A stretch of DNA of 56,412 nt from Candidatus Eremiobacterota bacterium (GTDB taxonomy: Bacteria > Vulcanimicrobiota > CADAWZ01 > Ess09-12), in contig JAVHLM010000039.1 in assembly GCA_031082125.1 (NCBI GenBank), positions 1 to 56,412 of the forward strand. Reading direction: 5' to 3'. Shown piece after piece: positions 32,881 through 54,230 of the stretch. A program made the position numbers and the translations under genes. The notes under the pieces are model-generated. The model was not told where the DNA came from, made no database searches, and saw only the letters and a program-made list of their open reading frames with translations. How positions within the stretch are numbered: the stretch's first letter is position 1; each line of letters starts with the position of its first letter.

Positions 32881-33372
32881 CTATTCCCCCGTGATGGTAA
32901 AGGTCACTGTCCTTGAGGTGAGGGGCACCTTGCCCGCCTCGCCTGATGCCTGAAAGCGGTACGTAATCGGAAGATTCTTTGCCGTCTTTTTCCCCGCGCC
33001 TGTCACCAGGTCCGATGGCGACGTTGAAAGGGAAACCTCGCCCAGGCTTGTGGCCCCTGCGGGCGCCGCAAGGTTCACCTTCAGCACCGTGTGAGGCGGC
33101 GTGTTCCTGTCAAGGCTCCCTGTAATCTTCCTGCTCCTTGCGTTGGTGAAAAAGCTGTACGACGTTGAGGCATCGGTGACTTCAGAGGTCTTCTTCTGGT
33201 CCTTGGCGGTAAGCACCTCCATCGGACCGGGGTCGCCGCTCACCGAGATCATGCTGAGGCCTGCGATGCTGAAGGAGACCTGGTGGCTCGCCGTGCTTCC
33301 CGCAGAAGCGGGGCACGCAAGGAGAAAGAGGAGCGCCATTGCTGCTGCGGTTATTGCGATTCCGTGCCTCAT
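32881..33372 (-). CDS. Small secreted beta-rich fibre-subunit-like protein (family member A)
   Basis: The 163-residue protein has a signal peptide cleaved after ASA (about residue 24) and a beta-rich mature part. Its pattern recurs in six other genes of this window: an alternating N-terminal strand (HQVSFSIAG), ISVSGDPG, TSYSFFTN, RKITGSL, LKVNLAAPAG, SLGEVSLS, LVTG, ITYRF, AGKV and a final RTVTFTITGE. It is closest to the protein at 42898. I do not recognise a named family; the alternating N-terminal strand and the beta ending recall pilins of chaperone-usher type. It is the second gene of a pair, 33 bases after member B. Confidence 0.8.
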   Translation of the reverse strand: MRHGIAITAAAMALLFLLACPASAGSTASHQVSFSIAGLSMISVSGDPGPMEVLTAKDQKKTSEVTDASTSYSFFTNARSRKITGSLDRNTPPHTVLKVNLAAPAGATSLGEVSLSTSPSDLVTGAGKKTAKNLPITYRFQASGEAGKVPLTSRTVTFTITGE

Positions 33373-33405: not shown

Positions 33406-33909
33406 TTAGTCGCCTGTGATGGTGAAGGTGATGGTCCGCGCCGCTGGCGTACTGTTCTTGTCCTGGCTGCTCATGCGGTAGGTGATGGGAAGATCAGTGG
33501 CCACCCTGTCAGGTGTTCCCGTCACAAGGCTCCTGTGGACCTGGGAGAGGGGCACGTAGCCTGAGCTGCGCGCGCCTTCAGGGGCTGCCATATGAATCTT
33601 CACCATCTGTGAAGAGGGAGCTTCGTCAATGGCGCCGGTGATGCGGCGCTCGAGCCCCACGGAGGAGCTGCTGTACGACGAGGACACCTGGCCGCTGGCG
33701 CTCCTCGCAGAGGCAGCCTGGGCAAGGGACACGAAGGAGGAGCCGCCCTCCATGGTGATGTCGTCCACGGGGGTCACTTTCAGCATGACGACCTGCGTGG
33801 CCGAGCTTCCGGCATAGACAGGGGAGCAGGCCAGCAAGAAAAAGAGCACTGCCGCCATGGCAATGGCTCCTTTCCAGATTCTGCGCGTTTTTGTAAGCTC
33901 TCCGTACAT
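33406..33909 (-). CDS. Small secreted beta-rich fibre-subunit-like protein (family member B)
   Basis: The ATG at 33909 has AGAGGAG nine bases before it; longer frames to 33978 are less likely. The 167-residue protein has a basic start, a hydrophobic signal and cleavage after VYA. It keeps the family pattern (RRITGAID, VKIHMAAPEG, SSGYVPLS, LVTG, LPITYRM, ARTITFTITGD) but is the most divergent member in the middle, where it is Ser/Ala-rich. A -10-like TACAAT (33941-33946, minus strand) lies 31 bases upstream with no clear -35. It forms a two-gene unit with member A, away from the chaperone and usher-like genes. Confidence 0.75.
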   Translation of the reverse strand: MYGELTKTRRIWKGAIAMAAVLFFLLACSPVYAGSSATQVVMLKVTPVDDITMEGGSSFVSLAQAASARSASGQVSSSYSSSSVGLERRITGAIDEAPSSQMVKIHMAAPEGARSSGYVPLSQVHRSLVTGTPDRVATDLPITYRMSSQDKNSTPAARTITFTITGD

Positions 33910-34166
33910 GGGGTTCTGCTCCTCTTGTCTTCCTGCTCTTATTGTATCAATTGGCATAGTGATGGGTAAATGGAGCAAGTCGCCTCATCTGGTTTTGCAT
34001 CCTGGAAGGTTTTTTTGTCTTTCGGGGTCCCCGGAAAAAGTACGGCTGCCCTCTACAGGCAGTGGAGTAAGACGGCACTTTCAAGAGAGAAACATGAAAA
34101 GGGCGGAAGGGGGGCCTGGGGAATTTTCCAGGATCACTGGGGTGAAGTGTCCCATCTCCCCCCAAA
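33910..34166. other. Intergenic stretch
   Basis: This gap between the divergent B gene and vapBC-like genes is less GC-rich than its surroundings. Apart from the -10-like box for gene B and the promoter that begins at 34167, I see no gene or structure in it. Confidence 0.5.
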
Positions 34167-35512: not shown

Positions 35513-37165
35513 TCAGGGCTTTTTCCTCAGCAGCATCCACCTCTCGGTGCTCTCTACGAAGTCGAAATGCTTTTCAATATAGCTGCCGTATATTCTCAGG
35601 AGCGGGAGCGTCGATTCAGGGCAGCCCGGCCGGGGCACCATGACGAGGGTGGTGTCATGGAAAGCCCTCTCCGGCATGATATAATGCTCATTGTTGAAAT
35701 CGACACCAAAATTGCAAATAGAGTAAAATCCTTTCGGGCTCATCAATCCGAGGCCCACCGGGAAAGGGTTCTCAAAGTCAAGCGTGGCGATCCTGTCATG
35801 CTCCCTGGCGTGCCTTTTCAGGAGATCGAGCCCCTCATTGAGCTTTTCAGGGTAATCCTTGTTGAAGGTGCCGTCGGCAAAGGCTACATAGAGGGCGCCA
35901 AGTGCGTCAGACCTTATCGCAGTGAGAGCGCCGGCAGCTTTTTTCTTGTTGGCGGAGGCAAAGCCGATGCTCGCCACATTCTTGCCATAGAAACTCCCGG
36001 TGATGATAAGAAATATCAGCAGAATGGAAAGGGCTGAGACAGCAAGGAATTCCCGGGAGTGATCGGGTTTCAGCAGAAAATACTCGAAAGGCAGAAAAAC
36101 CAGAGGCAGAAGCATCGGCATGTCATAAAACCCATGATTGGTGAGATTCAGCAGAATACCGCAGAGAAAGACGGCGGCCATCAGGGCGAATACCCTGGAG
36201 GGCGAGCCTATTTTCCCTCTGGGTTGAAAGGTGAAGCCCGAGAACAGTATCAGATACACGGGAAGCAGCATGAAAGAGAGGGCGAAAGGTCCCATCTTTT
36301 CCATGACAAAGGCCGGATCGGAGAAGAGTGACCGGCCTCTTACCAGGGTGACCATCTGGTAATCGCGGAGCACCGGGGTAAAATCGAACCGGAAGAAGAG
36401 GGCCATCGGCACGAGCGCTCCCGCAAGGCCCGCCGCGAAGCCTGCCGCCCAGCCGCCGGAAGGCCGCGCTATCACCGCTCTTATGACAAGAAGCGCGCAG
36501 GCGGCGGTGAAGAAGTTCACCTTGATGAATAAAAGGCACACCAGCAGGAAGCCCGTGGAGAGGCCGCCCGTGAAGTCCTGCCTTGTATCTTCTTTCCTGG
36601 GAGGGAAAAAAAGATCAAGCAGGATGACGAATAGCATGGCGTATCCATAGCGGTTGTAAAGATTTGCATAGGTCGTTGCCCGGTAATCGAGTCCGAGATG
36701 ATAGGCTCCCGTGATGAAAAGCCCCACGGCGAGAGCATAAAGAAACGCAAGGGGCGCCGACAGCCTCCTGACGGCGAGAATCCAGGTCCAGAGGGAGAAA
36801 AGCCAGAACATCATGAGGGTGGCAGAGATGATCCCCCACACCGAAACGCCGCCGAGCTTCATCCCCGCGGCAAGGATGAGAAAAAAAAGGGCACCGAGGA
36901 TCGATTGAAAATCGGCGTGGGGGAGCTGACCGTTGAGGACCCGCCAGGCACAGTCCATGTATACCGGCACGTCGTGGCCATACCTTGTAATCACCACGGG
37001 CCCCGTCCTGAGGAGCACGACGGTGATGAGCACCGCGATGACGAAGTATAAGGCGATGAAAAGCCGGTAAGAGCCGCTGATTTTCTCAAGAAAATCCATG
37101 ACGCGGCCGGAAACGGCGTCGATCCGGGAGGGGGCAGACTGTTCGGAGGCCATGTGCTCTTTCAT
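35513..37165 (-). CDS. Polytopic membrane protein, GT-C glycosyltransferase-like (copy 1)
   Basis: The 550-residue protein has about 10-12 hydrophobic helices, with a first extracytoplasmic loop GHDVPVYMDCAWRVLNGQLPHADFQSILG that resembles the acidic loop of GT-C lipid-linked sugar transferases (ArnT/PMT-like), and a soluble C-terminal domain of about 130 residues. No family signature is certain. The protein at 41002-42672 is a close paralog along its whole length, including the final FVESTERWML. A sugar transfer to a surface polymer or protein is plausible but not shown. No strong ribosome site precedes the ATG. Confidence 0.72.
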   Translation of the reverse strand: MKEHMASEQSAPSRIDAVSGRVMDFLEKISGSYRLFIALYFVIAVLITVVLLRTGPVVITRYGHDVPVYMDCAWRVLNGQLPHADFQSILGALFFLILAAGMKLGGVSVWGIISATLMMFWLFSLWTWILAVRRLSAPLAFLYALAVGLFITGAYHLGLDYRATTYANLYNRYGYAMLFVILLDLFFPPRKEDTRQDFTGGLSTGFLLVCLLFIKVNFFTAACALLVIRAVIARPSGGWAAGFAAGLAGALVPMALFFRFDFTPVLRDYQMVTLVRGRSLFSDPAFVMEKMGPFALSFMLLPVYLILFSGFTFQPRGKIGSPSRVFALMAAVFLCGILLNLTNHGFYDMPMLLPLVFLPFEYFLLKPDHSREFLAVSALSILLIFLIITGSFYGKNVASIGFASANKKKAAGALTAIRSDALGALYVAFADGTFNKDYPEKLNEGLDLLKRHAREHDRIATLDFENPFPVGLGLMSPKGFYSICNFGVDFNNEHYIMPERAFHDTTLVMVPRPGCPESTLPLLRIYGSYIEKHFDFVESTERWMLLRKKP

Positions 37166-41001: not shown

Positions 41002-42672
41002 TCAGGGCTTCCTCCGGTAGAGCATCCAGCGCTCGGTGCTCTCGACGAAGTCGAAATGCTTTTCCATATAGTCGCCGTATATCCTCAGCAAGGGGAGCGT
41101 AGATTCAGGGCAGCCCGGCTTGGGCACCATTATGAGGGTAGTATCAGAGAAAGCCCTCTCCGGCGGGATATAATGCTCGTTGTTGAAGTCAACGCCGAAA
41201 TTGCACATTCCATAAAATCCTTTCGGACTCTTTAATCTCAAGCCTACCGGGAAAGGGTTCTCGAAGTCGAGCGATACAATCCTGTCATGTTCTGCAATAT
41301 GCTTTCTTAGAAGCTCCAGACCCTCGTTGATTTTTTCAGGGTACTCCCGGTTGTAGCTCCCATCGGCAAAATCAACAGAGAGAGTATTGAGCGTCTCTGA
41401 TTTGATTTTCGTGATGCTGTTCCGCATCCTCGCCTTATTGGTGCCCGCAAATACAATACTGGCAAGATTTTTTCCATAAAAGCTCCCCACAGTGAAAATG
41501 CAGATCAGCAGGAGAGGGAACAGGAGGTAGCATTTGAATTCCTTTGACCTGTCCACTTTCAGGTCAAAATATTCAAAGGGAAGAAAGGCCATCACCAGAA
41601 GCATCGGCATATCATGAATTCCGTAATTCGTCATATTCAGAAGTATTCCGCAGAAGCCGGAAACACCCATAATCACGAAGAGCTTCACCGGCGAGTTTAT
41701 TCCACCCCTTGCGGTAAAAGCAAAACTGGAAAACAGCAGCATATAGAAGGGCAGCAGTATGAACACATAGGCGAAAGGCCCTATTTTCTCCATGAATAAA
41801 GCAGAATCCATGAGAATTTCATAACCTCTCACCATGGATACTATCCGGTAATCATGGACCACGGCGCTGAAACTGAACCTGAAATAGAGCGCCATCGGTA
41901 CAATGGCGCAGAAAAAGCCTGCCATAAAGCCTTTCACCCAGTCTTTAGAGGGTACGGCGAGCAGGATTCTTAATAGAATGAATAAAGACGCCGCGGTGAA
42001 ATAATTGATCTTGATGAACCACAGGCACACCAGCAGAAAGCCGGTGGAAAAGCCTCCCGCACTTTCATGCAGCTTCTTTTCTTTCCTTAGAGGGAAAAAC
42101 AGCTCAAGAATGACGATGAAAAGCATGGCATAGCCATAGCGGTTATAAAGCGTCGTGTAAGTGGTGACAGTGTAATCAAAGCCCAGATGATAGGTCCCCG
42201 TGATAAAAAGCCCCACGGCGAGAGTGAAAAGAAAAGCGAGAGGTGCCGAAAGCCTCTTTACCGCAAGAATCCAGGCCCAGAAGGAAAAGAGCCAGAACAT
42301 CAGAATGTTGGCGCAGACTATCCCCCACACCGAGACGCCGCAGATCTTCATCCCTGCGGCGAGAATGAGAAAAAAAAGGGCGCCAAGCACCTGTTGAAAA
42401 TCAACGTGGGGAATCTGGCCGCAGAGAACCCGCCAGGCCGAGTCAAGATACACCGGCACATCGTGGCCGAACCTCATGATCACCACTGGCCCCGTCCTGA
42501 TGAGCAGAAAAGTAATAAGAGCCCCAATCCCGCAGTATATCAGGAAAAAGAAACGGTATGACTCCCTGATTCTGCTGCAAAACCCCGCGATGAGGCATGC
42601 GAGAAGAACCAGCTCGGGTTGCCCGGCCTGAGAGGGAGCTTTTGTGGTGTCCGTGATGGCCTTATTTTTCAT
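41002..42672 (-). CDS. Polytopic membrane protein, GT-C glycosyltransferase-like (copy 2)
   Basis: The 556-residue paralog of the protein at 35513-37165 is similar along its whole length, with the same loop GHDVPVYLDSAWRVLCGQIPHVDFQQVLG, the same block GAYHLG/GTYHLGFDYTVTTYTTLYNRYGYAMLF, and the soluble C-terminal domain ending VESTERWMLYRRKP. It has about 10-12 membrane helices. I chose the ATG at 42672; the TTG at 42690 is also possible, and neither has a good ribosome site. A GT-C sugar transferase acting outside the cytoplasm is the best guess. The gap 42673-42897 after it holds nothing I can name. Confidence 0.72.
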   Translation of the reverse strand: MKNKAITDTTKAPSQAGQPELVLLACLIAGFCSRIRESYRFFFLIYCGIGALITFLLIRTGPVVIMRFGHDVPVYLDSAWRVLCGQIPHVDFQQVLGALFFLILAAGMKICGVSVWGIVCANILMFWLFSFWAWILAVKRLSAPLAFLFTLAVGLFITGTYHLGFDYTVTTYTTLYNRYGYAMLFIVILELFFPLRKEKKLHESAGGFSTGFLLVCLWFIKINYFTAASLFILLRILLAVPSKDWVKGFMAGFFCAIVPMALYFRFSFSAVVHDYRIVSMVRGYEILMDSALFMEKIGPFAYVFILLPFYMLLFSSFAFTARGGINSPVKLFVIMGVSGFCGILLNMTNYGIHDMPMLLVMAFLPFEYFDLKVDRSKEFKCYLLFPLLLICIFTVGSFYGKNLASIVFAGTNKARMRNSITKIKSETLNTLSVDFADGSYNREYPEKINEGLELLRKHIAEHDRIVSLDFENPFPVGLRLKSPKGFYGMCNFGVDFNNEHYIPPERAFSDTTLIMVPKPGCPESTLPLLRIYGDYMEKHFDFVESTERWMLYRRKP

Positions 42673-42897
42673 CGGTGGCTTTAGGAGCAAGGCATATTAA
42701 TAAAAGTTCTAGTATCCAGAGTAATTATTCGAGGAGCAGCAGTTCTTTCCTTGTGAACCACACCGCACCGGACCTTATCGCAGAAAATGGTATTCAGGGG
42801 AGAGAGCGTGCGGCAGAATGGCTCAATCACTTAGAAAAAGTCGATTCCGGAGAGATAATGGGAAGAGCTGCTGCGGAGAGGGGGGCAGGAGACCAGG

Positions 42898-43431
42898 TTA
42901 TTCGTCGCAGAGGGTGTAAGTGACGGTGCGCCTTGTGAGGGGCACCCTCCCTGCTTCCTTTTCTGCGGCAAACTTGTAGGTGATCGTGAGGTTCTTTCCC
43001 GTTCTTTTCCCCACGCCCACCACAAGATCCTTTGGCGACGAGGAGAGGGAGACATCACCAAGACTTGTGCCGCCTGGAGGCGCTGCAAGATTCACCTTGA
43101 GCATTGTGTAGGAAGGGGCGTTCTGATCAAGAGTGCCCGTTATTTTTCTTCTCTTCGCATTGGTGAAGAAACTGTAAGAACTCGAGGAATCGATGACCTC
43201 TCTCGCGCCCGACTGGTTAAGAGATACAAAGACCTCCATGATCCCGGGGTCGCCCTGCACGGTGATCTGGTCAATGGCGGGCACGGAGATGTAAACATTG
43301 TGCGTCGCCTGGTCGCCGGCCCATGCGGGCACACTCAGGACCAGCACAAGGCAGAGGCACACCAGAAGCGCTCTTACCTGCGAGGACATGTTCCTCAGTA
43401 AAAAATAGTTCATAATGCTGAAATCCATCAT
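42898..43431 (-). CDS. Small secreted beta-rich fibre-subunit-like protein (family member C)
   Basis: The frame gives 177 residues with a long N-region and a signal cleaved after AWA (about residue 38). The true start could be an internal ATG (43389). The mature part keeps the full family pattern: THNVYISVPAIDQITVQGDPG, SYSFFTN, RRKITGTL, LKVNLAAPPG, SLGDVSLS, LVVG, ITYKF, AGRV and RTVTYTL. It is closest to member A (32881). It has its own promoter (43454-43482) and so is transcribed apart from the D/E pair upstream. Confidence 0.8.
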   Translation of the reverse strand: MMDFSIMNYFLLRNMSSQVRALLVCLCLVLVLSVPAWAGDQATHNVYISVPAIDQITVQGDPGIMEVFVSLNQSGAREVIDSSSSYSFFTNAKRRKITGTLDQNAPSYTMLKVNLAAPPGGTSLGDVSLSSSPKDLVVGVGKRTGKNLTITYKFAAEKEAGRVPLTRRTVTYTLCDE

Positions 43432-43453
43432 CCCCAGTTTATCTTCTCGTTAT

Positions 43454-43482
43454 ATCATAACCTATTTCGTCTCAAATTGCAA
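43454..43482 (-). promoter_or_regulatory. Promoter of subunit gene C
   Basis: On the minus strand TTGCAA (43477-43482) and TATGAT (43454-43459) are 17 bases apart. Transcription would start near 43447, about 16 bases before the first ATG. Confidence 0.68.
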
Positions 43483-43560
43483 ATCTCTTCTTTCGATTGC
43501 GCCTCGGAAACGCCGCCATGAAGGCCTTTTGTCCGAGTAAAATTTCCTCGCTCAAGGTGA

Positions 43561-44055
43561 TCATGGACCGGCGGTCAGGGTAATGGTCACATCTCTGGAG
43601 GTGGAGGCTATAATGCCCGATATGACGGGGGCCGTGAAGCGGAATGTCACTGTGATCGCCGTGCGGTAGCCCGGGTTAAGCGATGAGACAACGTTCTGCG
43701 CCGTCGTGGAGAGCGGCACGAAACCGGCGCTTGTCCCGCCCAGAGTCCCGCCCGGGGCGGCGGCCTGCATCTCGACAGTGGTGTCAGCAGGAGCCGCAGA
43801 GTTGAGGGCCGCCGTGAGCTTGAAGTTGGCACGGTTCGATGAGATATTGTAGGTCATGGACTGCTCGCTTGAATCAGGCTCATCGCCGGCTGCGGCGGTC
43901 TGCACCGTCAGGGATACTGGCGACCCGGTGAGGGACATCTCAGTGATTGATGCCACGGTGATGTTGAGAGTCTGGTTTATGGAGTTCGCGCTGCCGGGAG
44001 AACAGGCAAACACTATAAGGCACAGAGACAGGATAATCCACCGCCTGCAGTTCAT
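43561..44055 (-). CDS. Small secreted beta-rich fibre-subunit-like protein (family member D)
   Basis: The 164-residue protein has a signal peptide cleaved after GSA (about residue 23). The mature part shows the alternating N-terminal strand QTLNITVASITEMSLTG, the block GDEPDSSEQSMTYNISSN, KLTAALN, EMQAAAPGG, GFVPLS, ITVTFRF and the end SRDVTITLTAGP. It has the layout of the family but is the member furthest from A and C. Its ATG is 11 bases after the stop of member E, so D and E are one transcript. I do not recognise a named family. Confidence 0.8.
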   Translation of the reverse strand: MNCRRWIILSLCLIVFACSPGSANSINQTLNITVASITEMSLTGSPVSLTVQTAAAGDEPDSSEQSMTYNISSNRANFKLTAALNSAAPADTTVEMQAAAPGGTLGGTSAGFVPLSTTAQNVVSSLNPGYRTAITVTFRFTAPVISGIIASTSRDVTITLTAGP

Positions 44056-44066
44056 GGCGCCCCTCC

Positions 44067-44543
44067 TTAATTGGTAAGCGTGAAAAAGACCGTTCTGGTG
44101 GTCGTATCGATCTCTCCCGCATCGACTGTGGCCGAGAAGGTGTAGCGAAGGTCAAGGTTCTTTCCCTTTATTTTCGTGAGGCCCGTCACGGCGTCAACTG
44201 TCGAGCTTGTGAGGAGCAGATCGCTCGTCCATGTGCTGTCGGGCTTCTTGAAGGCGATCATGAGAGCAGTGCCGGTCTCGGTGTTGCTGTCGATGCGCAC
44301 CGTGATCTTCAGGTTGGTCCCGTTGGTGGTGAAACTGTATCTCGTGGTGGAATCGCTGACTGCCGTGGGCTCCTCACCTGCTACCGCGGAGTTCACCGTG
44401 AGGGGAGCAGGAGAGCCCGAGACGGAGAGCTCGCTTATCGAGTTTGCCTGAAGGTTCACCACACCTACCACGACGTTGGACCCGTGGACTGGAGCGGCAA
44501 GCACGAAGAGCAGTGCTGCGGCGATGATAATTCTGGCTGTCAT
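44067..44543 (-). CDS. Small secreted beta-rich fibre-subunit-like protein (family member E)
   Basis: The ATG at 44543 follows AAGGAGG with four bases spacing. The 158-residue protein has a signal peptide cleaved after VHG (about residue 21 of this start). The mature part reads NSISELSVSGSPAPL, GEEPTAV, TRYSFTTN, KITVRID, LMIAFKKPD, LTSSTVDAVTG, LDLRYTFSATVDAGEI and RTVFFTLTN, matching the family pattern. Its own promoter lies directly after the usher-like gene, so it can be expressed more strongly than the assembly genes. It is followed by member D. Confidence 0.82.
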   Translation of the reverse strand: MTARIIIAAALLFVLAAPVHGSNVVVGVVNLQANSISELSVSGSPAPLTVNSAVAGEEPTAVSDSTTRYSFTTNGTNLKITVRIDSNTETGTALMIAFKKPDSTWTSDLLLTSSTVDAVTGLTKIKGKNLDLRYTFSATVDAGEIDTTTRTVFFTLTN

Positions 44544-44565
44544 GGCGCCTCCTTTCACCCTCTCT

Positions 44566-44595
44566 ATTATAACGGAGAAAAGCTCCCCGCGTCAA
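44566..44595 (-). promoter_or_regulatory. Promoter of the E-D subunit genes
   Basis: On the minus strand TTGACG (44590-44595) and TATAAT (44566-44571) are 18 bases apart. The -35 box begins one base after the stop codon of the usher-like gene. Confidence 0.75.
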
Positions 44596-47500
44596 TCATT
44601 TCTTCCTGGTTTCTTTCTTCTGATCCTTCTTGACGTCGCCGTGATCGATGATCTTGATGGTCCTCTTCCTGGGAAGGATTCTCAGGGCGAGTGTCTTTTC
44701 CCCGCCAGGGGCCACCTCGACTTCGATATTGTTGGTCTCCAGGTAAGTAAGCTCGGGAAGCTCGTCATCATAGACAATCAGGGTCCATTTTCCCGGGCGC
44801 ACGTCATAAAAGGCGAAATCGCCGTTGCCGTTGGTCATCTGCCTCACCGTCTCATTCCCGTTGGTGATCTCGACAAGGGCCGAGGAGAGACCTCCCTTGG
44901 CCACAAGGGGCGCCGGCGCCTCGCCCTTGCCGGGGATGAGAAGCTCGCCGCTCCCCCTGTCCTCCGGGGGACCATAAATGGTGATGTTTCCCGATATCTT
45001 CGCCGAGGTGATGATTCCGATAGGGAGCTCTTTTGTTTCACCGCCCTTGAGCTTGATGGCAAATGGCGTCTTCTCCTTTGTCACTTTCCTGAGTCCGATG
45101 GAGCGCTTCTCCACCGATATATAAATCTCACCCGGCCCAAGGGCGGGGAAAAGATACTTTCCCTTGCCGTCACTCACGGCAACGGCCTGGCCGGCCTTCA
45201 CGACGACGTTGGCGAGGGGGACCACCCCTTCCTTTTCGGCGTCGAACACCACGCCCTTTATCATGGCGATGTCCTTTTTCCGCGAGACCGGGACCCCAAG
45301 CGGGATATTGTAGGTCACCATGACGCCCCTGTCATCAAAAGTGTTGGTGGATCTCCTCTTTCGGGCCCTCATGAGCAGGAAGCTCTTGTCGGGGAAAAGA
45401 TACTCAACGGTGCCGTAGTAGTTCTGGCTCTGCTGCATGGTGTCATATATGGTGTACTGCTCGTAGTTGAAGGTCATCTTGAGGTTTTTTGAAAAGGCGA
45501 GCTGCGCCGATCCCCCTATGGTGTTTCCGAACTGGGGATTCAGATAGAAGGTGGTCTCGCCGTTGATGAGGTACAGGGTGAGACCTAGGCCGGGAGCTGG
45601 ATTGTAATAAGCATAAAGACTGGTTCTGGTCATCGGTTGCTCGTAGTTGATTATGTTTTCATTGAGAACTCCCTTTTCCAGGTAGGCCTGGAGGCCCCAT
45701 CTGGTGAAACTCTGCCCGAGCCCCCAGCGCCACCAGCGCGTCCGGAAATTGTAATCAACGGGCAGGAAGTCGTCCTTGCGGTCAAAGTCGTTGTAATCGA
45801 GGGAAAGAGAAAGCCCGCCGGGAAAAGTGTAGGCGGTGCCCACCTGGTAGGTCTCCTCCCGGTTCGCCGTGCTCTGCGTCGGGTCGCGGGAAAGATTGTT
45901 CTGGTAGAAACGGTATGAGCCGTAGCCCGAGAGCTCCTTCAGTATGGGGAAGGTGATGGAGGCGTTGGTGTAGTCCACGTCGCTCATGTAGCCGAAATAG
46001 CGGGGGCCTGCATAGCATTTCTCGAAGGCGTAATTGATGGACTGGCTGATGGCGCCGTTCAGCACGATATGGTAGGCCTTGTCGAAGGCTGCACCGCCGC
46101 TGTTGCTGTTGCAGCCCGCGTACTCGGCCTGGAGCTTGAGTTTGTCTTTCACCTCGTAATTACCCAGGATACTGTAAAGCCTCGCATTGTTCCAGCTTCC
46201 CGGCAGGCCGCTGCCGTAAATGAATCCGATAGGAGGGGCGCCGCTGTAGTCATCGAAGTACCCGTTCATCGCGCCGTTCACGAAGCAGTTGATGGTGCCG
46301 TTCACATAGCCCTCGAACTCCCCGTTCACATAGCCGTAGCCTGTCACGAAGCCTATTACCTGGCCGCTTATGTAGCCGTTGAAGAAGCCGTTGAGGTATG
46401 CATTGACGTAGTTGTTGAGGTAATTGTTGGGCATGACTGAGGTATCACGGGTCTTGTTGAGAAGGGTGCCCTGAAAATAAAGGCGGTCGCTCGCGTTATA
46501 GGCCATGAAGGCCGCCGTCTGCTCCTCCTGCGGCTGGGAGAGAAGGGTGCGCAGCGTATAGCCCCCCCACTCCACGCGGGGTCCCAGGAAATCCACTTCG
46601 GCGGCCCTGCCGTACTTGAAGTTCTCCGTGAGGGGCGTGAGGGAATAGTTCTGGTCGCCGAGGTGCATCTCGAAGGTCCTGGTATAGTAATTCATGAAGT
46701 ACTGCTCCCGGTTTGCCCACTGGAAGTTCTGGAGATCCGGCGACCGGAAGAGAAAATCGATTTTCCTGGTCTCTGCCTCGTCAAGACTCCCCGCGCCTGA
46801 CACCTCGCCCTGGAATCCTGTCTGGCCGTTGTCGTTGAACTCGGCGAGGCTCACGAGGCACTTGAGGCGGTGATAGGGATCATAGACGCCTGTAATGCGG
46901 GGAAGCACTTTTACCGATGCGCTCCGCTCGATGACCAGATTCTTTTTCAGGCTCTCATCGACAATGAGCCTCATCACCACGACGTTCTGCTCCTCCCGGA
47001 CCAGGCTTTTCTCGGTCTTCACGGTGACGGTGATGAGCTCTGACTGTCCCACGTCCAGGGTCATGCGGGAAACCGGGGCACTGAGGGGAAACGGTGGGGA
47101 GTTTTTCAGCTCAAGGCCCATGGCGGTGGCCACGTTTCCCCTGTTGGTGACGCGGAGCTTTATCGCATATATGTCGCCGGCGATGACTATCTCGGGCTTC
47201 TCCTCAACCTGGGCCTCAATTCTTATCAGAGGGTTCACTTCGATCTCGACGGTTCCGCTCCCCTCGGCGGCCTGGGAGGCCTGGACCTGGTAGGTGAGCT
47301 CGTAGCGGCCCGCGGGTGCCTTTGCGGGGATCCGCACCGTGGCAAAACGGACAAGCTCTTCTCCGGCGCTGATCCTGAAGGGCTGACCCGTGGGGATCAC
47401 GACCTGCCACCCGGGGGGCACTTTCATGGTCTCTGTGGGAGAAAGGGCCGCACCTAAGGTGTTTTTCACCTGAAAGGCGGCAGTGACAATCCTCCCCGGG

Positions 47501-47667
47501 TCGGTCTGGATGGCCTGCGGCGACGAGCGTCGCACTGAAAGGGCGCCTGAAGAGAAAGCTGTGCCTGCCCCGCAGACGAGGAGGACCATGAGCACCATGA
47601 GAATGAAGTGAGAGGGGAGCTTACTTGATCGAGATATTGTACTCCGCCCCGAAAACGTTTTCATCAC
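44596..47667 (-). CDS. Large predicted outer-membrane, usher-like protein
   Basis: The 1023-residue protein has a signal peptide with a long basic start (hydrophobic 21-38), two Ig-like domains (about 45-260), a long Tyr/Asn-rich, Gly- and aromatic-ending beta region (about 265-790) and two or more carboxypeptidase-regulatory-like domains (about 790-1000). EMHLGDQNYSLTPLT, RGAAEV-like GRAAEVDFLGPRVEWGGY and the C-terminal GVVFDAEKEGVVPLANV...KYLFPALGPGEIYISV echo fimbrial ushers and the domains that end them. It overlaps the chaperone-like gene by 47 bases. It would sit in the outer membrane and assemble or secrete the small subunits. No family match is certain. Confidence 0.8.
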   Translation of the reverse strand: MMKTFSGRSTISRSSKLPSHFILMVLMVLLVCGAGTAFSSGALSVRRSSPQAIQTDPGRIVTAAFQVKNTLGAALSPTETMKVPPGWQVVIPTGQPFRISAGEELVRFATVRIPAKAPAGRYELTYQVQASQAAEGSGTVEIEVNPLIRIEAQVEEKPEIVIAGDIYAIKLRVTNRGNVATAMGLELKNSPPFPLSAPVSRMTLDVGQSELITVTVKTEKSLVREEQNVVVMRLIVDESLKKNLVIERSASVKVLPRITGVYDPYHRLKCLVSLAEFNDNGQTGFQGEVSGAGSLDEAETRKIDFLFRSPDLQNFQWANREQYFMNYYTRTFEMHLGDQNYSLTPLTENFKYGRAAEVDFLGPRVEWGGYTLRTLLSQPQEEQTAAFMAYNASDRLYFQGTLLNKTRDTSVMPNNYLNNYVNAYLNGFFNGYISGQVIGFVTGYGYVNGEFEGYVNGTINCFVNGAMNGYFDDYSGAPPIGFIYGSGLPGSWNNARLYSILGNYEVKDKLKLQAEYAGCNSNSGGAAFDKAYHIVLNGAISQSINYAFEKCYAGPRYFGYMSDVDYTNASITFPILKELSGYGSYRFYQNNLSRDPTQSTANREETYQVGTAYTFPGGLSLSLDYNDFDRKDDFLPVDYNFRTRWWRWGLGQSFTRWGLQAYLEKGVLNENIINYEQPMTRTSLYAYYNPAPGLGLTLYLINGETTFYLNPQFGNTIGGSAQLAFSKNLKMTFNYEQYTIYDTMQQSQNYYGTVEYLFPDKSFLLMRARKRRSTNTFDDRGVMVTYNIPLGVPVSRKKDIAMIKGVVFDAEKEGVVPLANVVVKAGQAVAVSDGKGKYLFPALGPGEIYISVEKRSIGLRKVTKEKTPFAIKLKGGETKELPIGIITSAKISGNITIYGPPEDRGSGELLIPGKGEAPAPLVAKGGLSSALVEITNGNETVRQMTNGNGDFAFYDVRPGKWTLIVYDDELPELTYLETNNIEVEVAPGGEKTLALRILPRKRTIKIIDHGDVKKDQKKETRKK
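46240..46422 (-). repeat. Tetrapeptide repeat array within the usher-like protein
   Basis: Residues 416-476 are built of about fourteen four-residue units of the form aromatic-X-(N/S/T)-G, such as YLNG, FFNG, YISG, FVTG, YVNG and FVNG. Encoding DNA shows the matching 12-bp periodicity (GTTCACATAGCC-like on the plus strand). Asn-Gly is the classic two-residue type I' beta turn. Confidence 0.85.
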
Positions 47668-48421
47668 CGTTATCTGCTACGACAAGGGCCTTGTAATCTC
47701 CTTTCGGCACGCCTGAGAGGTCGATGAGGTGGCGCACTGAGCAGCCGGGGTAAATTCTGTACTTGCCGCTCTCAAAGCGGCCCACGTAAGCGCCGCTCCC
47801 GCTGTAAAGCTCTGTCCACACTGCCGGGATAAGGGTTCGCTCGCCGTTGTTCTCCAGGTCGAGCTGCAGGGCCACCTGGTTGTCCTTGAGGACGAGCTGC
47901 TTGTCAATGAAACGGAGCTTCTTCTCCCCGGAGTCGGCGATGTTGGTGGAGATCTGTATCCCATAGCGCACAATGGTCTGGAGGCCCACCTTGATCTTGC
48001 CCTTTTCGGGCGACACCTCGGGAGCCGTTTCGGCGATAGGCTCCACCATTATCATGCTCCAGTACGATCCGTTGAGGGCATCGTCCTTGGGCACTGTGAT
48101 GGTGTAATTGATTGCCGCCGTCTCCTTGGGAGCCACCGTGAGGCGCATGGGGCTTATGGATATCCATTTTGCATTTGAGCGGGCCATTTTTCCGGCCTCG
48201 CCGTAAGTGTTACGGCCGTCATAGAAGAACTGGTAGTCCGTCTGGTAAACCTTCACGTCGCTCGGGGTATCGCCGTCGTTGCGGCAGATGATCATGCCGT
48301 CATAGGAGTCTCCCGGCTTCGCGTCGTGATCGTGGGTGAGGTTCCCCACGACAGCCACGCGGGCCCAGGAACATGTGGCGGTAAGGACTATGAAGAGAAG
48401 AATCAGTGCAACTTTTTTCAT
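47621..48421 (-). CDS. Periplasmic chaperone-like two-domain Ig protein
   Basis: I chose the ATG at 48421, with AAAGGGGGAG before it. The 266-residue protein has a signal peptide cleaved after SWA and two Ig-like domains. The first (about 20-140: PGDSYDGMIICRNDGDTPSDVKVYQTDYQF, WISISPMRLTVAPKETAAINYTITVP, GSYWSMIMVEP) has the strand pattern of pilus chaperones and of DUF916-type WxL-interacting domains. The second (about 150-266) ends GDYKALVVADNG. It lacks the usual chaperone signature residues. It lies 11 bases after the H gene and overlaps the usher-like gene, so the three form one operon. Confidence 0.8.
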   Translation of the reverse strand: MKKVALILLFIVLTATCSWARVAVVGNLTHDHDAKPGDSYDGMIICRNDGDTPSDVKVYQTDYQFFYDGRNTYGEAGKMARSNAKWISISPMRLTVAPKETAAINYTITVPKDDALNGSYWSMIMVEPIAETAPEVSPEKGKIKVGLQTIVRYGIQISTNIADSGEKKLRFIDKQLVLKDNQVALQLDLENNGERTLIPAVWTELYSGSGAYVGRFESGKYRIYPGCSVRHLIDLSGVPKGDYKALVVADNGDENVFGAEYNISIK

Positions 48422-48432
48422 GGTCTCCCCCT

Positions 48433-48960
48433 TTACGGTGTATTTACGCATGTCAGTACTATAATGATATTGCTGTAGGTCCCTGTGCCATCGGTAAGCT
48501 CGCAGCCCTGGATCTCATACTGGATAGGGATGTTATTCCTGTCCCCGTTCCCGTTGAAAAAAGTTTGATCCGAGGTGGTTACCAGCAGGAAGGTGTCGCC
48601 GCCCGATACTGCTGTTCCGTTTGAACCAGTGCCGGTACCGGTCCTCTTTATCCAGATCTGAAAGGGAAGCGTCCCACCGTAGGTATAACGCACATCAACA
48701 CGGTAGTTGTCCCACTTATTTTTGCAGCCCGAGATCACTACAAGTGTCTGGTTGGTGGCGCTGTCAATGATCTGATTGATCTCTGAGCCTGCGCCTGACT
48801 GAAGATCAGTGGAATCTATTGTTCTTGTCCACCCCGAGGAAGTTGATGAAATGGTGGGTACCGCATAAACCTGGCCCGTGAGCAGTGCGGCTGTCAAAAT
48901 AAAAAAAACAAAGAAATATCCCACACGGCTTTTCAATGATTTGAAAAAGTCTCTCATCAT
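48433..48960 (-). CDS. Secreted protein at head of the fibre operon, tip-like (H)
   Basis: The 175-residue protein has a signal peptide (about 1-33, AVYA). The mature part differs from the A-G family: it has three Cys, including GCK and GCELTD, many Ser/Thr/Gly, and a final strand GTYSNIIIVLTCVNTP that resembles the GTYTD-type end of spore-coat-U/Csu-type pilins. It is the first gene of the chaperone/usher-like operon, 11 bases before the chaperone-like gene, so it could be the tip, adhesin or first subunit. GGAGGTGAAG precedes the ATG. The promoter is not clear. Confidence 0.78.
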   Translation of the reverse strand: MMRDFFKSLKSRVGYFFVFFILTAALLTGQVYAVPTISSTSSGWTRTIDSTDLQSGAGSEINQIIDSATNQTLVVISGCKNKWDNYRVDVRYTYGGTLPFQIWIKRTGTGTGSNGTAVSGGDTFLLVTTSDQTFFNGNGDRNNIPIQYEIQGCELTDGTGTYSNIIIVLTCVNTP

Positions 48961-49044: not shown

Positions 49045-51174
49045 TTATTCCCTCGCTGCCCCTCCCCGCTTTTCAAGCTCAAGGGCATCAAGCCGGACAG
49101 CCTCCGGCTCGTTGCGGTCGCGGTGGATCTCCATGCGGACCCGGTATGCGTCCAGAAAGGAGGGGTCGCGCTCGAGAACCTTCGCGAGCTCTGCGAGGGC
49201 CTTGGGATCGTTCCCCATCCTGTGGAGCGTGTGGGCCAGCGTGACGCGGGCCCTCAGGTGGGAGGGGTCGAGCCTGAGGGCTTCCCTCAGGTCGTCAAGA
49301 GCTTTATCATAGTCTTTTTTCAGGAAAAAGACGGTCCCCCTGTTGCTCAGTATTCCCGCGTGGCCCGGCGAGAGCCTGAGGGCCTCCGTGAGGTCGGCGA
49401 CGGCCCTGTCGTATTCCTTCATGGCCGCGTGGAGAGAGCCCCGGTTGTTGAGGGCATCCTTGTGCATCGGGTCGAGGAAGAGGGCGCGGTCATAGTCCCT
49501 GAGGGCTTCCCGGAACTCTCCCTTATGCTGGTGCACCAATCCCCTCGTGGTAAAGGCGTCGGCGTTATAGGGGTTGTATTCCACAGCCCTGTCACAGTCC
49601 ACCAGGGCGCTTTCCAGATCTCCTTTCTTCTGACGTGCGGCGCCCCGGTTCCCGTGTGCCTCGGAAAAGCGGGGGCTGTATGCTATGGCCTTGTCGTAGT
49701 AGGCGATGGCCTCATCTGTCTTTCCCGTCATGAAGAAGATGACGCCGCAGTTATTGTGTGCCGAGGCGTCATAGGGATTGACGGAGAGGACGGTAGTGCA
49801 TTCCGCGAGAGCTGCGTCAAAGTCTTTTTGTTCTATATAGGCGAGGCAGCGGCCATAGTATGCATTAAGGTTCCTCGAGTCCTTCATTGACGTGTCGTTC
49901 CAGAGGGTGATGCTGTCCTTCCAGACGCCGCAGCGCTCCCATGTGAGGATACTGAGCGTGATGACCATGGCGGCGCCGAGAGCGAGTATCCCCCGCGCCG
50001 CGGGACTGTGCTCTCTGGAAAGCCCCTGGTGGATCCACAGCACCCCGAGGGCAATAATGAAGAAATACCCCAGGGAAGGCACGTAGAAATAGCGGTCGGC
50101 GGCGATGCCGGGCGGGATAGGGAGGATCTGGCTCACGGGGAGGATAGTGATGAGATAGAAGAGAAGGCCGAAGAGGACCTCCCTGGAGCGCCGGGCGAAG
50201 TAAAGGGCCAGGGCGAAGACCAGGGGCGCGATGACGCCTGTCGCCGTGAACTCCCATGGAAGTGAGCCCGCGGTTTTTGCCTCGACAGGGTGGCGATACA
50301 CCGCTGAGAGATTGACCGGGAGGAGCATCTTGGAGAAATAGAAATAAAAGCCGTAGCCGGCGACAATGAGATTGTAACCGAGGGTCGGCGCAGGTCCCAG
50401 GTCCGTCTCGACGGCCTTTCCTATCTCGCCGATAGTCCTCAGGATCAGAAGCTCGCCGATGCAGAGCAGGATAAAAGGCAGCTTGTTCACCAGGAAGTCA
50501 GCCTTGAGCGCCCGCTCCTCGTACCAGTCAAGAAGGAGAAGCACCGCCGGGAGGGTGATTGCCATGGGCTTGGCCAAGAGCGAGAGCACAAAGAAGGCTA
50601 GCGTGAGGCCGTAAAAAAGAGGCTTTCTGTGTGTCCGCCAGTGAAGGTAAGCAATCATGGAGAGAAGATAGAAAAAAGCATAGAGCACGTCCTTGCGCTC
50701 GGTGATCCATGCCACGGACTCCACGTGGAGGGGGTGGATCCCGAAGAGGAGCGCCACGATGAAGGCCGCCCACTCATTCCTCGCGAGCAGCAGGAACAGC
50801 CAGAAGACCAGGGTCGTGTTGAGGCAGTGGAGCACGAGGTTGGTGAGATGGAAGGTGAAGGGGGAAGGCCCCGAAAAGTGATATTCCACGGCGAAGGAGA
50901 GGGTGGTGAGGGGGACGTAGAGGCTCTTCACCAGGATGTTGCTCCGGTAGAGCGAGGGGTCTGAGAAATTGAAGATTCCCTTCAGGTTCTCCCAGGAAAG
51001 CTCAAAGACCAGGGGGTTGTTCAGGATATACTCGTCGTCATCCCAGTTGGTGAAGCCGTTCTGAAGAGACGGGAAAAACGCTGTGAAGGTGACGGCGACG
51101 AGAAGAAAAACTAGCAGGGCCTGACGGCCGCCCTGCCGTGAATCTGAGCATTTCCTCTTCTCTTGCCGCCCCAT
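49045..51174 (-). CDS. TMTC-like membrane glycosyltransferase with TPR repeats
   Basis: I chose the ATG at 51174, with GAGAGGTG before it. The 709-residue protein has about 10-11 membrane helices, with WDDDEYILNNP in the first loop and FGIHPLHVESVAWITERKDVLYAFFYL, the DUF1736/GT-C signature of TMTC-type O-mannosyltransferases, followed by about eight TPR repeats (about 455-690). Such proteins transfer sugars from a lipid carrier to protein outside the cytoplasm; the TPRs would hold substrate. It is upstream of the fibre operon on the same strand, which suggests glycosylation of the subunits, but this is inference. It ends 84 bases before the H gene. Confidence 0.88.
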   Translation of the reverse strand: MGRQEKRKCSDSRQGGRQALLVFLLVAVTFTAFFPSLQNGFTNWDDDEYILNNPLVFELSWENLKGIFNFSDPSLYRSNILVKSLYVPLTTLSFAVEYHFSGPSPFTFHLTNLVLHCLNTTLVFWLFLLLARNEWAAFIVALLFGIHPLHVESVAWITERKDVLYAFFYLLSMIAYLHWRTHRKPLFYGLTLAFFVLSLLAKPMAITLPAVLLLLDWYEERALKADFLVNKLPFILLCIGELLILRTIGEIGKAVETDLGPAPTLGYNLIVAGYGFYFYFSKMLLPVNLSAVYRHPVEAKTAGSLPWEFTATGVIAPLVFALALYFARRSREVLFGLLFYLITILPVSQILPIPPGIAADRYFYVPSLGYFFIIALGVLWIHQGLSREHSPAARGILALGAAMVITLSILTWERCGVWKDSITLWNDTSMKDSRNLNAYYGRCLAYIEQKDFDAALAECTTVLSVNPYDASAHNNCGVIFFMTGKTDEAIAYYDKAIAYSPRFSEAHGNRGAARQKKGDLESALVDCDRAVEYNPYNADAFTTRGLVHQHKGEFREALRDYDRALFLDPMHKDALNNRGSLHAAMKEYDRAVADLTEALRLSPGHAGILSNRGTVFFLKKDYDKALDDLREALRLDPSHLRARVTLAHTLHRMGNDPKALAELAKVLERDPSFLDAYRVRMEIHRDRNEPEAVRLDALELEKRGGAARE

Positions 51175-51292
51175 GGGCTCACCTCTCCGGTCACTCTCTC
51201 CCCGATCTGCCGCAGGCGCTCCGCCGAAGGCCACGCCTTTCCGATTCCCCGCCCGGGTCTCTTACTCCTCTCCGTGCCCGGCAACAAGGCAC

Positions 51293-51351: not shown

Positions 51352-51852
51352 TTATTGACTCAGCATGGTGAGCGTGCACGTCCTGCTTGCATTCACCGGG
51401 TCGGCGTCCTGGGTGCAGGAGAGCTTATAGCTTATTTGCGTATCAGATGCTCTGTATTTGCCTCCGGTGGCAATGGTGACCGCCGTGGAGCCTGTGATGG
51501 TCTGGTATTCACTCCCTGCCCAAGTTCCGCCTCCCGTACCCGAGGGAATAGCCGACTTTATCTGAAGGGTGACCTCGGCCGGCATATCGGCGCTCAACTG
51601 CGCGGTAATCCTGCGGGTAGCAAGGTTGGTGGTAAAGCTGTATTTGACGTTTGTCAGATCCTCCACAGGATCGGGGTCTTCACCTGGTGTCACCGTGGTG
51701 ATGGCGAGGGTCGCTGTGCCGGTGCTTGAGATCTCCTGGAATGACGCAATTGAGAAACTTACCGTGTGGGTCGCCTGGGTTGCCGCCATCGCCGACCCGC
51801 TCATCAGGCATATCATCGCGGCTATCGTGAGTATGAGTGCATATTTTTTCAT
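51352..51852 (-). CDS. Small secreted beta-rich fibre-subunit-like protein (family member F)
   Basis: I chose the ATG at 51852, with AAGGAGG eleven bases before it; a TTG start at 51885 is less likely. The 166-residue protein has a signal peptide cleaved after AMA (about residue 23). The mature part has THTVSFSIASFQEISSTG, GEDPDPVEDLTNVKYSFTTN, TRRITAQLS, LQIKSAIPSG, SEYQTITGS, ISYKLSCTQDADPV and the end SRTCTLTMLSQ, with two Cys that could form a disulphide. It is closest to member G next door. It has its own promoter and terminator, so it is a single-gene unit. Confidence 0.82.
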   Translation of the reverse strand: MKKYALILTIAAMICLMSGSAMAATQATHTVSFSIASFQEISSTGTATLAITTVTPGEDPDPVEDLTNVKYSFTTNLATRRITAQLSADMPAEVTLQIKSAIPSGTGGGTWAGSEYQTITGSTAVTIATGGKYRASDTQISYKLSCTQDADPVNASRTCTLTMLSQ

Positions 51853-51990
51853 CTTGAGTCTTTCCCTCCTTTGGGTTTTTTTCAATATCTCTTGCTTATC
51901 TATCCTTCAACTTCCTCTGGGGCTCTTGCACCTCCTTCGCACTTCTTTGAGGAATTTTTACCCTTTCACTGTCACTATTCCACCTTTCTC

Positions 51991-52042: not shown

Positions 52043-52552
52043 CTATTGCGAGGTGAGGGTGTAGGTCACGTTGGTCGTGCCGCTCGACACCTCACCTGCA
52101 TCGACCGTGGCTGAGAGACGGTATGTGATGGTGAGACCCGATGCTCTTTTTCTGCCCCCGGTCGCCAGGTCAGCAGCCGATGTCGAGAGGCTCTGGTAGC
52201 CGGTGCTTGACCATGCGTTGGGTGCCCCGGCTGCCGCGAGGTTCACCTCGAGCGTGAGACCTGAAGGCATATTCGCCGAGAGCGCGCCCGTGATCTTCCT
52301 GGTGGTCTGGTTGGTGGTGAACGCGTAGGTGGTCGTGGCATCCTCAACAGGGTCAGGCTCGCTGCCGGCAGTGGCAGTGCTTATCGTCATCGCTCCGGGG
52401 CTCCCGCTCACCGCTATCTCATTGATCCCCGATACCGCGTAGGTCACCGTTGCGCTCGCATTGTCTGCCGCAAAGGCGGGCCCTGAAAATATGAGCGCGA
52501 TTATCGCGACGGCGGCGGTCACCTTTATCATTTTTACCAGGTTCTTCATCAT
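52043..52552 (-). CDS. Small secreted beta-rich fibre-subunit-like protein (family member G)
   Basis: The double ATG at 52552/52549 with AAGGGGG before it is the likely start. The 169-residue protein has a signal peptide cleaved after AFA (about residue 28). The mature part has ATVTYAVSGINEIAVSGSPGAMT, GSEPDPVEDATTTYAFTTN, TRKITGALS, LEVNLAAAG, GYQSLSTS, LATGG, LTITYRLSATVDAGEV and the end TNVTYTLTSQ. It is the member that best shows the whole family pattern. Its own promoter is near consensus. It ends next to the promoter of gene F. Confidence 0.83.
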   Translation of the reverse strand: MMKNLVKMIKVTAAVAIIALIFSGPAFAADNASATVTYAVSGINEIAVSGSPGAMTISTATAGSEPDPVEDATTTYAFTTNQTTRKITGALSANMPSGLTLEVNLAAAGAPNAWSSTGYQSLSTSAADLATGGRKRASGLTITYRLSATVDAGEVSSGTTNVTYTLTSQ

Positions 52553-52604
52553 TTTATCCCCCTTTTCTGAGTATTTTTTACTCATTTTCCCTCTTCCTGA
52601 TATA

Positions 52605-52633
52605 ATTATACCTGAATTTTTCCCCGCAGTCAA
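52605..52633 (-). promoter_or_regulatory. Consensus promoter of subunit gene G
   Basis: On the minus strand TTGACT (52628-52633) and TATAAT (52605-52610) are 17 bases apart; transcription would start near 52598 and the leader is about 45 bases. Confidence 0.85.
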
Positions 52634-53456: not shown

Positions 53457-54194
53457 TTATTCTATCCCGAGCCTGTCCAGCTCTGCGTCGGAGAGGGCCG
53501 TGGCCTTTTTGATGGTTTCCCTTTCGAAACCTTGGCTCCTGAGGCGGGCGGCCACTTCTGCTTTGCCCTCTGCTTTGCCCTCTTCACGGGCAAGAGTAAG
53601 CTTCGTGGCCTCTATCAGCTCCGCTTTCTCACGAAAGTGAATCATATTCTGCACCCTGCGGTCGGCAAGCGACTTCCTATACTCGTTCACTGCCATTTCC
53701 ATCCCCTCCTCATCCTTCAGCACTGCAGGAACTTCCACCTCAATAGTAGCATATTTCACGCTGAATTTCAAAAAATGGGGACTGCTGAACCTGCTGTGAA
53801 CCCTCTCAAAGCCGGGAAAGAGGACATAACTCACAATAGATATTGCTATTGTCTTCTTTAGCAGCGTGAAGTCGTCGCCGCGGCCAAGCTGGCCCCCATG
53901 AAGCCTGGCATGGTAAAATGACACTCTCGGAATGAACATCTTCTCATCGCCAACCTGCATCTCGATGTGATAGCGGCGGCCCCAGCTGTCTTTTGCCGCG
54001 ATATCCAGGATCCCCAGCCTGTCTTCAAGCTTCTCCCCATAGCGGAATGGATTCAGGATCGCCACCTTTTCGATGCGGTCCTCACCAGAAAATCCCAGCA
54101 CGCTATTCAAGAACGCTCTCAGTATGCACGTATTGGTATCTCTTCCAAACACCGATTTGAAAAGAATGTCATTAGTAAGGGGGACAACCTTCAC
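53457..54194 (-). CDS. Rpn family recombination-promoting nuclease (PD-(D/E)XK)
   Basis: I prefer the GTG at 54194, with GAGAGGTG before it; an ATG at 54230 is in frame. The 245-residue protein has the family start VPLTNDILFKSVFGRDTNTCILRAFLNSVLG, the nuclease core LGILDIAAKDSWGRRYHIEMQV with the D...ExQ acidic set, and a charged tail with EGKAEGKAEVAARLRSQGFERETIKKATALSDAELDRL. Rpn proteins are DNA endonucleases that stimulate RecA-independent recombination and are spread horizontally. It looks intact. The two truncated relatives at 35135 and 37720 have another type of tail. Confidence 0.9.
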   Translation of the reverse strand: MKVVPLTNDILFKSVFGRDTNTCILRAFLNSVLGFSGEDRIEKVAILNPFRYGEKLEDRLGILDIAAKDSWGRRYHIEMQVGDEKMFIPRVSFYHARLHGGQLGRGDDFTLLKKTIAISIVSYVLFPGFERVHSRFSSPHFLKFSVKYATIEVEVPAVLKDEEGMEMAVNEYRKSLADRRVQNMIHFREKAELIEATKLTLAREEGKAEGKAEVAARLRSQGFERETIKKATALSDAELDRLGIE

Positions 54195-54230
54195 CGGGCA
54201 CCTCTCTCTTCTGTTCCTCAGGATTATCAT

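Follow-up and report, generated by a model that had tools for sequence, protein, structure and literature searches.

A likely divergent chaperone–usher operon with a WxLIP-type chaperone in a Candidatus Eremiobacterota genome

We analysed a 56,412-nucleotide contig (the window) of an uncultured, two-membraned Candidatus Eremiobacterota bacterium and, within it, a minus-strand operon at 42898-48960. In the order 48960→42898, it encodes a secreted protein H, a two-immunoglobulin (Ig) chaperone, a large usher-like protein and three secreted subunits, E, D and C. We consider it likely that this operon encodes a divergent form of the chaperone–usher pathway in which the chaperone is of the WxLIP type and the subunits are related to WxL proteins. 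The operon itself, the homologies of its members, the absence of classical families and a relative's usher-like fold are supported by our computational tools; donor-strand complementation and exchange, the order of the subunits and a fibre as the product are what we infer. H, the first gene (48433-48960; 175 amino acids (aa), with Cys), overlaps the chaperone gene (47621-48451) by 19 nucleotides (nt), which in turn overlaps the usher-like gene (44596-47667) by 47 nt; gaps of 37, 11 and 129 nt then lead to E (44067-44558), from E to D (43561-44055) and from D to C (42898-43431). All the open reading frames (ORFs) reported by the initial annotation were found on this strand, although it had in one place ended the chaperone at 48421 where the frame runs to 48451. 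The chaperone and the usher-like protein each have a single match in the 7.4-Mb genome, which is the sole listed member of its family.

The chaperone is a secreted protein of 276 aa with a DUF916-like Ig domain followed by a DUF3324-like one. Alone, it matched a WxLIP protein of Enterococcus faecium weakly (expect value, E, of 0.011). A profile of 29 sequences, comprising the window chaperone and 28 homologues from the same phylum, matched the EfmWxLIP1 structures 9i25 and 9i1y across both Ig domains with an E of 2.8e-10, and 24 of the 29 family members matched Pfam WxLIP_PGBD, with one matching WxLIP_HBD. Together with a relative whose subunits pass the Pfam WxL cut-off, described below, these matches bear out the relation to WxL/DUF916 surface systems that the initial annotation had put forward as a possibility. 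The initial annotation had also proposed comparing the chaperone with pilus chaperones and DUF916; with the limit set at E ≤ 10, the profile search of solved structures returned WxLIP (DUF916) and nothing of the PapD family. WxLIP proteins are composed of two Ig domains and a C-terminal membrane helix (PMC10599100). No such helix was found in the window chaperone, where mean hydropathy over 19 residues peaks at 0.65 within the last 60, which fits a free periplasmic chaperone, and from its sequence the protein looks like a soluble, periplasmic, two-Ig homologue of WxLIP (DUF916-DUF3324) lacking the membrane anchor. In published AlphaFold2 complexes, the WxL sandwich has a gap into which a hairpin strand of WxLIP fits in parallel (PMC10599100), an arrangement that, by analogy, resembles donor-strand complementation; the words 'chaperone', 'usher' and 'donor' are absent from that paper, which defined WxLIP. 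Three Bipolaricaulota chaperones (L151:6381-7424, L158:7984-9003 and L163:7910-8992) carry a dockerin/EF-hand-like calcium repeat (DFNNDG...) as a C-terminal extension.

The Pfam model PF00345 (PapD) matched neither the window chaperone nor any family member scanned, and both it and PF00577 (Usher) are absent from the genome, in agreement with the claim of the initial annotation that the system lacks classical family members. It could still genuinely belong to one of the chaperone–usher clades already known, archaic or alternative, and simply be too divergent for Pfam, a reading that we regard as improbable. No class of such systems is larger or more widespread than the archaic one (PMC4654587), and profiles do reveal a likeness to PF00577-type systems within the phylum: the chaperone profile aligned with nine PapD-like chaperones that adjoin PF00577 ushers at 1.4e-15 over both domains (0.49 in a reversed-sequence control), and approximately 15 PF00577 ushers aligned with the Eremiobacterota usher family at 8e-15, mainly through their C-terminal domains. 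However, the PF00577 and PapD models match no member tested, the chaperone profile finds WxLIP and not PapD among solved structures, 23 of the phylum's 149 genomes have a PF00577-type usher but that of the window has none, and comparison of the subunits with the usher-linked subunits of PF00577-type systems produced no convincing match.

The usher-like protein, of 1023 aa, is recognized by Pfam at its ends, by NEW3-type Ig domains at the N-terminus and by CarboxypepD_reg at the C-terminus, where two such domains can be seen; between them we infer a barrel at residues ~255-800. PF00577 was not matched by this protein or by the related ushers scanned. In its own phylum it matches by sequence over short stretches only, mostly in the C-terminal domains. 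Bipolaricaulota genomes, a set reached through locus L100, contained a match (E ≤ 0.01) in 89 of 100 cases, typically to residues 20-220 or 810-1010 and in ORFs of ~850-1000 aa, although a few of the 89 may be other proteins that share these domains. A profile alignment with 15 ushers that neighbour Bipolaricaulota chaperones extended over residues 22-1007 with an E of 9.3e-34; this match is driven by the flanking domains, and we therefore did not use it as evidence for the barrel. The putative barrel contains a low-complexity stretch rich in N, G and Y/F (NNYLNNYVNAYLNGFFNGY..., usher residues ~412-476), encoded at 46240-46434 with no long DNA tandem array there. A match to pyridoxal kinase, obtained when the single usher sequence was searched against the PDB, covered only a repetitive stretch and was rejected as a low-complexity artefact.

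Structural support for the usher assignment came from a relative. The Eremiobacterota usher of locus L084, modelled with a deep alignment (predicted local distance difference test score, pLDDT, 77.5), shows ~24 long strands at residues 82-543 followed by beta-sandwich domains. Searched against the PDB, this model returned FimD at ranks 1-7 (E 3e-16 to 9e-15), a Bacillus anthracis TIE protein at rank 8 and PapC at rank 9, with porins appearing from ~1e-7. The template modelling (TM) scores against ushers are modest, 0.32-0.44 by target length, which indicates that L084 shares the fold and layout of ushers and not a close structural identity. This model and the conserved gene order described next uphold the chaperone–usher likeness that had been proposed for the operon from its sequence.

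The pairing of chaperone and usher recurs in both phyla. In Eremiobacterota, 27 of 30 loci include the usher (one of them partial), and the contigs of the remaining three break off at the chaperone or a short way upstream. Many of these loci follow the order usher–subunit–chaperone–subunit–subunit–large protein; the last, of ~1370 aa, has a C-terminal region that weakly resembles the subunits (2e-5), and its sequence suggests that it could be a two-domain tip adhesin. Among Bipolaricaulota, 83 of 100 genomes have a match to the chaperone profile, and a match to the window usher begins within 3 kb of 64 of the 90 listed chaperone places (55 genomes). We considered whether the large protein could instead be an unrelated outer-membrane or polysaccharide-export protein, whose adjacency to the chaperone would then have little functional meaning. 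Its CarboxypepD_reg and NEW3 domains are widespread, and sequence comparisons of the barrel are not significant; however, we judge this explanation very improbable because of the chaperone–usher linkage in both phyla, and an usher is also the top fold match of the relative's model. In three Eremiobacterota operons (L047, L050 and L059), a flagellin-like gene adjoins the usher on the opposite strand.

The closest relatives of the window operon lie in Bipolaricaulota. The chaperones of loci L154 (genome G231) and L148 (G191) are 46% and 40% identical to that of the window, which matches homologues from its own phylum far less strongly. The operons at L154, L155 (G232) and L148 have the same gene content, with chaperones 40-46% identical, and those at L154 and L155 also have homologues of H and of one subunit gene; they differ in that their usher barrels have diverged past sequence recognition and in that the number of subunits varies. 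Because the closest relatives are found in another phylum, horizontal transfer of the operon between phyla is possible on these sequence comparisons.

We also examined the subunits. A profile built from five of them identified seven members in the genome, all inside the window: C, D and E in the operon; F (51352-51885) and G (52043-52633), upstream of H; and a distal pair, A (33406-33978) and B (32881-33372), all on the minus strand. These are paralogues, 27-44% identical to the first sequence; together with their confinement to the window and the recurrence of the chaperone–usher pair elsewhere, this shows that the grouping of genes goes beyond chance. That every paralogue surrounds one chaperone–usher pair is the pattern expected of a dedicated secretion system. 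Their sequences combine an N-terminal alternating segment with a C-terminal strand, as in E, where a terminal strand is predicted at the end, a pattern that would fit donor-strand subunits. The alternating segment THTVSFSIAS, which the initial annotation had cited from F, is real, but F lies beyond the interval that it had delimited. Across all ORFs of the retrieved relatives, the window subunit profile found the subunit gene near the closest chaperones, in L154 and L155 (E 1e-27 and 2e-30). Profiles connect the window subunits to those of Bipolaricaulota (9e-10) and these in turn to those of a group headed by G135, an Eremiobacterota genome of 8.4 Mb (6e-7), some of whose subunits, at least at locus L042, exceed the Pfam WxL cut-off. 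On sequence grounds, the window subunits are WxL-related through this chain of profiles and not through a direct match. The 8.4-Mb genome has three separate chaperone–usher loci (L042, L043 and L044). Pfam matches of window proteins to Pilin and PTS_EIIC fell below the cut-off and were dismissed.

H also has counterparts in the Bipolaricaulota set, where two genomes have an orthologue immediately preceding the chaperone gene (L154:8803-9375, 36% identity; L155:8256-8831, 33%). By profile, H is also weakly connected to the other subunits (7.8e-7), and it is probably an adapter or tip subunit.

The WxL relationship raises another explanation, in which the operon produces a diderm WxL/WxLIP coat: the subunits would be monomeric or loosely associated and held by WxLIP-like proteins at the peptidoglycan or outer membrane, and the large protein would be an anchor or export channel with no polymerisation of a fibre. 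The chaperone's sequence is closer to that of WxLIP than to that of PapD, the subunits of relatives score as WxL, and the presence of several paralogous subunits would be in keeping with a coat. Against it, the membrane anchor of WxLIP is missing from the chaperone, the outer-membrane protein of a relative folds most like ushers, and the Eremiobacterota operons end with the ~1370-aa protein, whose weakly subunit-like C-terminal region is as found in tip adhesins. We thus think a coat unlikely, though less so than either of the alternatives discussed above.

Several results weigh against the chaperone–usher pathway that we favour. In a control comparison, the PapD-like profile matched the N-terminal Ig pair of the usher at 5.6e-9, which shows that the likeness between the chaperone and PapD-like proteins is partly generic to Ig domains, and we gave that match less weight. 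The barrel region of the window protein, when compared by itself, had no significant match to either usher family (E 0.08 and 0.22), and the other barrel-only comparisons were also weak (0.029, and 4e-4 for classical versus Eremiobacterota ushers), so the homology of the window usher rests on its flanking domains. A test of alternating-residue hydrophobicity for the barrel did not separate known ushers from shuffled sequences. The window subunits had no significant match in the Pfam scan and no WxL motif. For subunit E, the AlphaFold2 model made with the seven window paralogues is of low confidence (pLDDT 54.8), and a fold search with this model found nothing significant, that is, nothing below 0.001. 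Finally, no obvious two-domain tip adhesin was seen in the window.

If the operon is a chaperone–usher pathway, the subunits, along with H, would be exported by Sec into the periplasm, where the soluble two-Ig chaperone would bind each nascent subunit and a strand of its first domain would complete the open beta-sandwich. Loaded chaperone–subunit complexes would dock on the N- and C-terminal periplasmic beta-sandwich domains of the 1023-aa outer-membrane usher, the incoming subunit would displace the chaperone strand there with its own N-terminal strand, and the subunit chain would be extruded as a surface fibre. Chaperone binding, docking, donor-strand exchange and extrusion are proposed because of the homologies above and the general pathway (PMC4654587).

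The operon thus shares features with two kinds of known system. Like the classical, alternative and archaic chaperone–usher pili (FimC-FimD, CsuC-CsuD), it encodes together secreted subunits, a two-Ig periplasmic chaperone and a large predicted outer-membrane protein, with a relative's modelled usher folding most like FimD and PapC and with remote profile likeness in the chaperones and the usher C-terminal domains. It differs from them in that its proteins match no Usher (PF00577), PapD_N or fimbrial subunit models, its chaperone is of the WxLIP type, and its usher has NEW3-type N-terminal Ig domains and CarboxypepD-like C-terminal domains. Like the WxL/WxLIP clusters of Gram-positive bacteria, it has clustered genes, a two-Ig partner that matches EfmWxLIP1 and WxLIP_PGBD and, in one relative, subunits that pass Pfam WxL. 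In contrast to those clusters, its chaperone has no C-terminal membrane helix, its subunits have no WxL motif, and it includes an usher-like outer-membrane protein and more subunits. The operon would therefore link two systems so far described separately, chaperone–usher and WxLIP/DUF916. A literature search, with preprints and most subscription papers outside its reach, found no description of such a system; both 'chaperone-usher' and 'WxL' occur in two papers, though not in the title or abstract of either. If our reading is correct, it represents a new chaperone–usher branch in two poorly known diderm phyla, Eremiobacterota and Bipolaricaulota, both outside the phyla listed for archaic systems (PMC4654587), and it suggests how the Gram-positive WxL/WxLIP proteins, which have no settled role, might work: a chaperone would complete the fold of its client with a strand. 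More tentatively, and at somewhat less than even odds in our view, monoderm WxL/WxLIP and diderm chaperone–usher systems might share one ancestral chaperone–subunit module with window-type diderm systems as the intermediate; monoderms would have lost the usher and anchored the chaperone in the membrane, or the reverse would have occurred.

Multi-span membrane proteins lie beside each set of subunit genes. One, between F and H (49045-51234, minus strand), has C-terminal tetratricopeptide repeats (TPRs) that match Pfam; a second, downstream of C (41002-42690, minus strand), had no Pfam match and, as read from its sequence, carries a GT-C-like motif; and a paralogue of the second is found at 35513-37165, near A and B. 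These proteins are possibly GT-C glycosyltransferases, and we speculate that they could glycosylate the Ser/Thr-rich subunits. A gene for a PD-(D/E)XK nuclease family transposase stands beside the cluster at 53457-54230. Promoter-like sites number 13 compared to ~4 expected, and three strong ones (11 of 12 matches) are found on the minus strand near G, F and E, at 52633, 52019 and 44595, with that near F reading TTGACC-17-TATAAT at 52019-51991.

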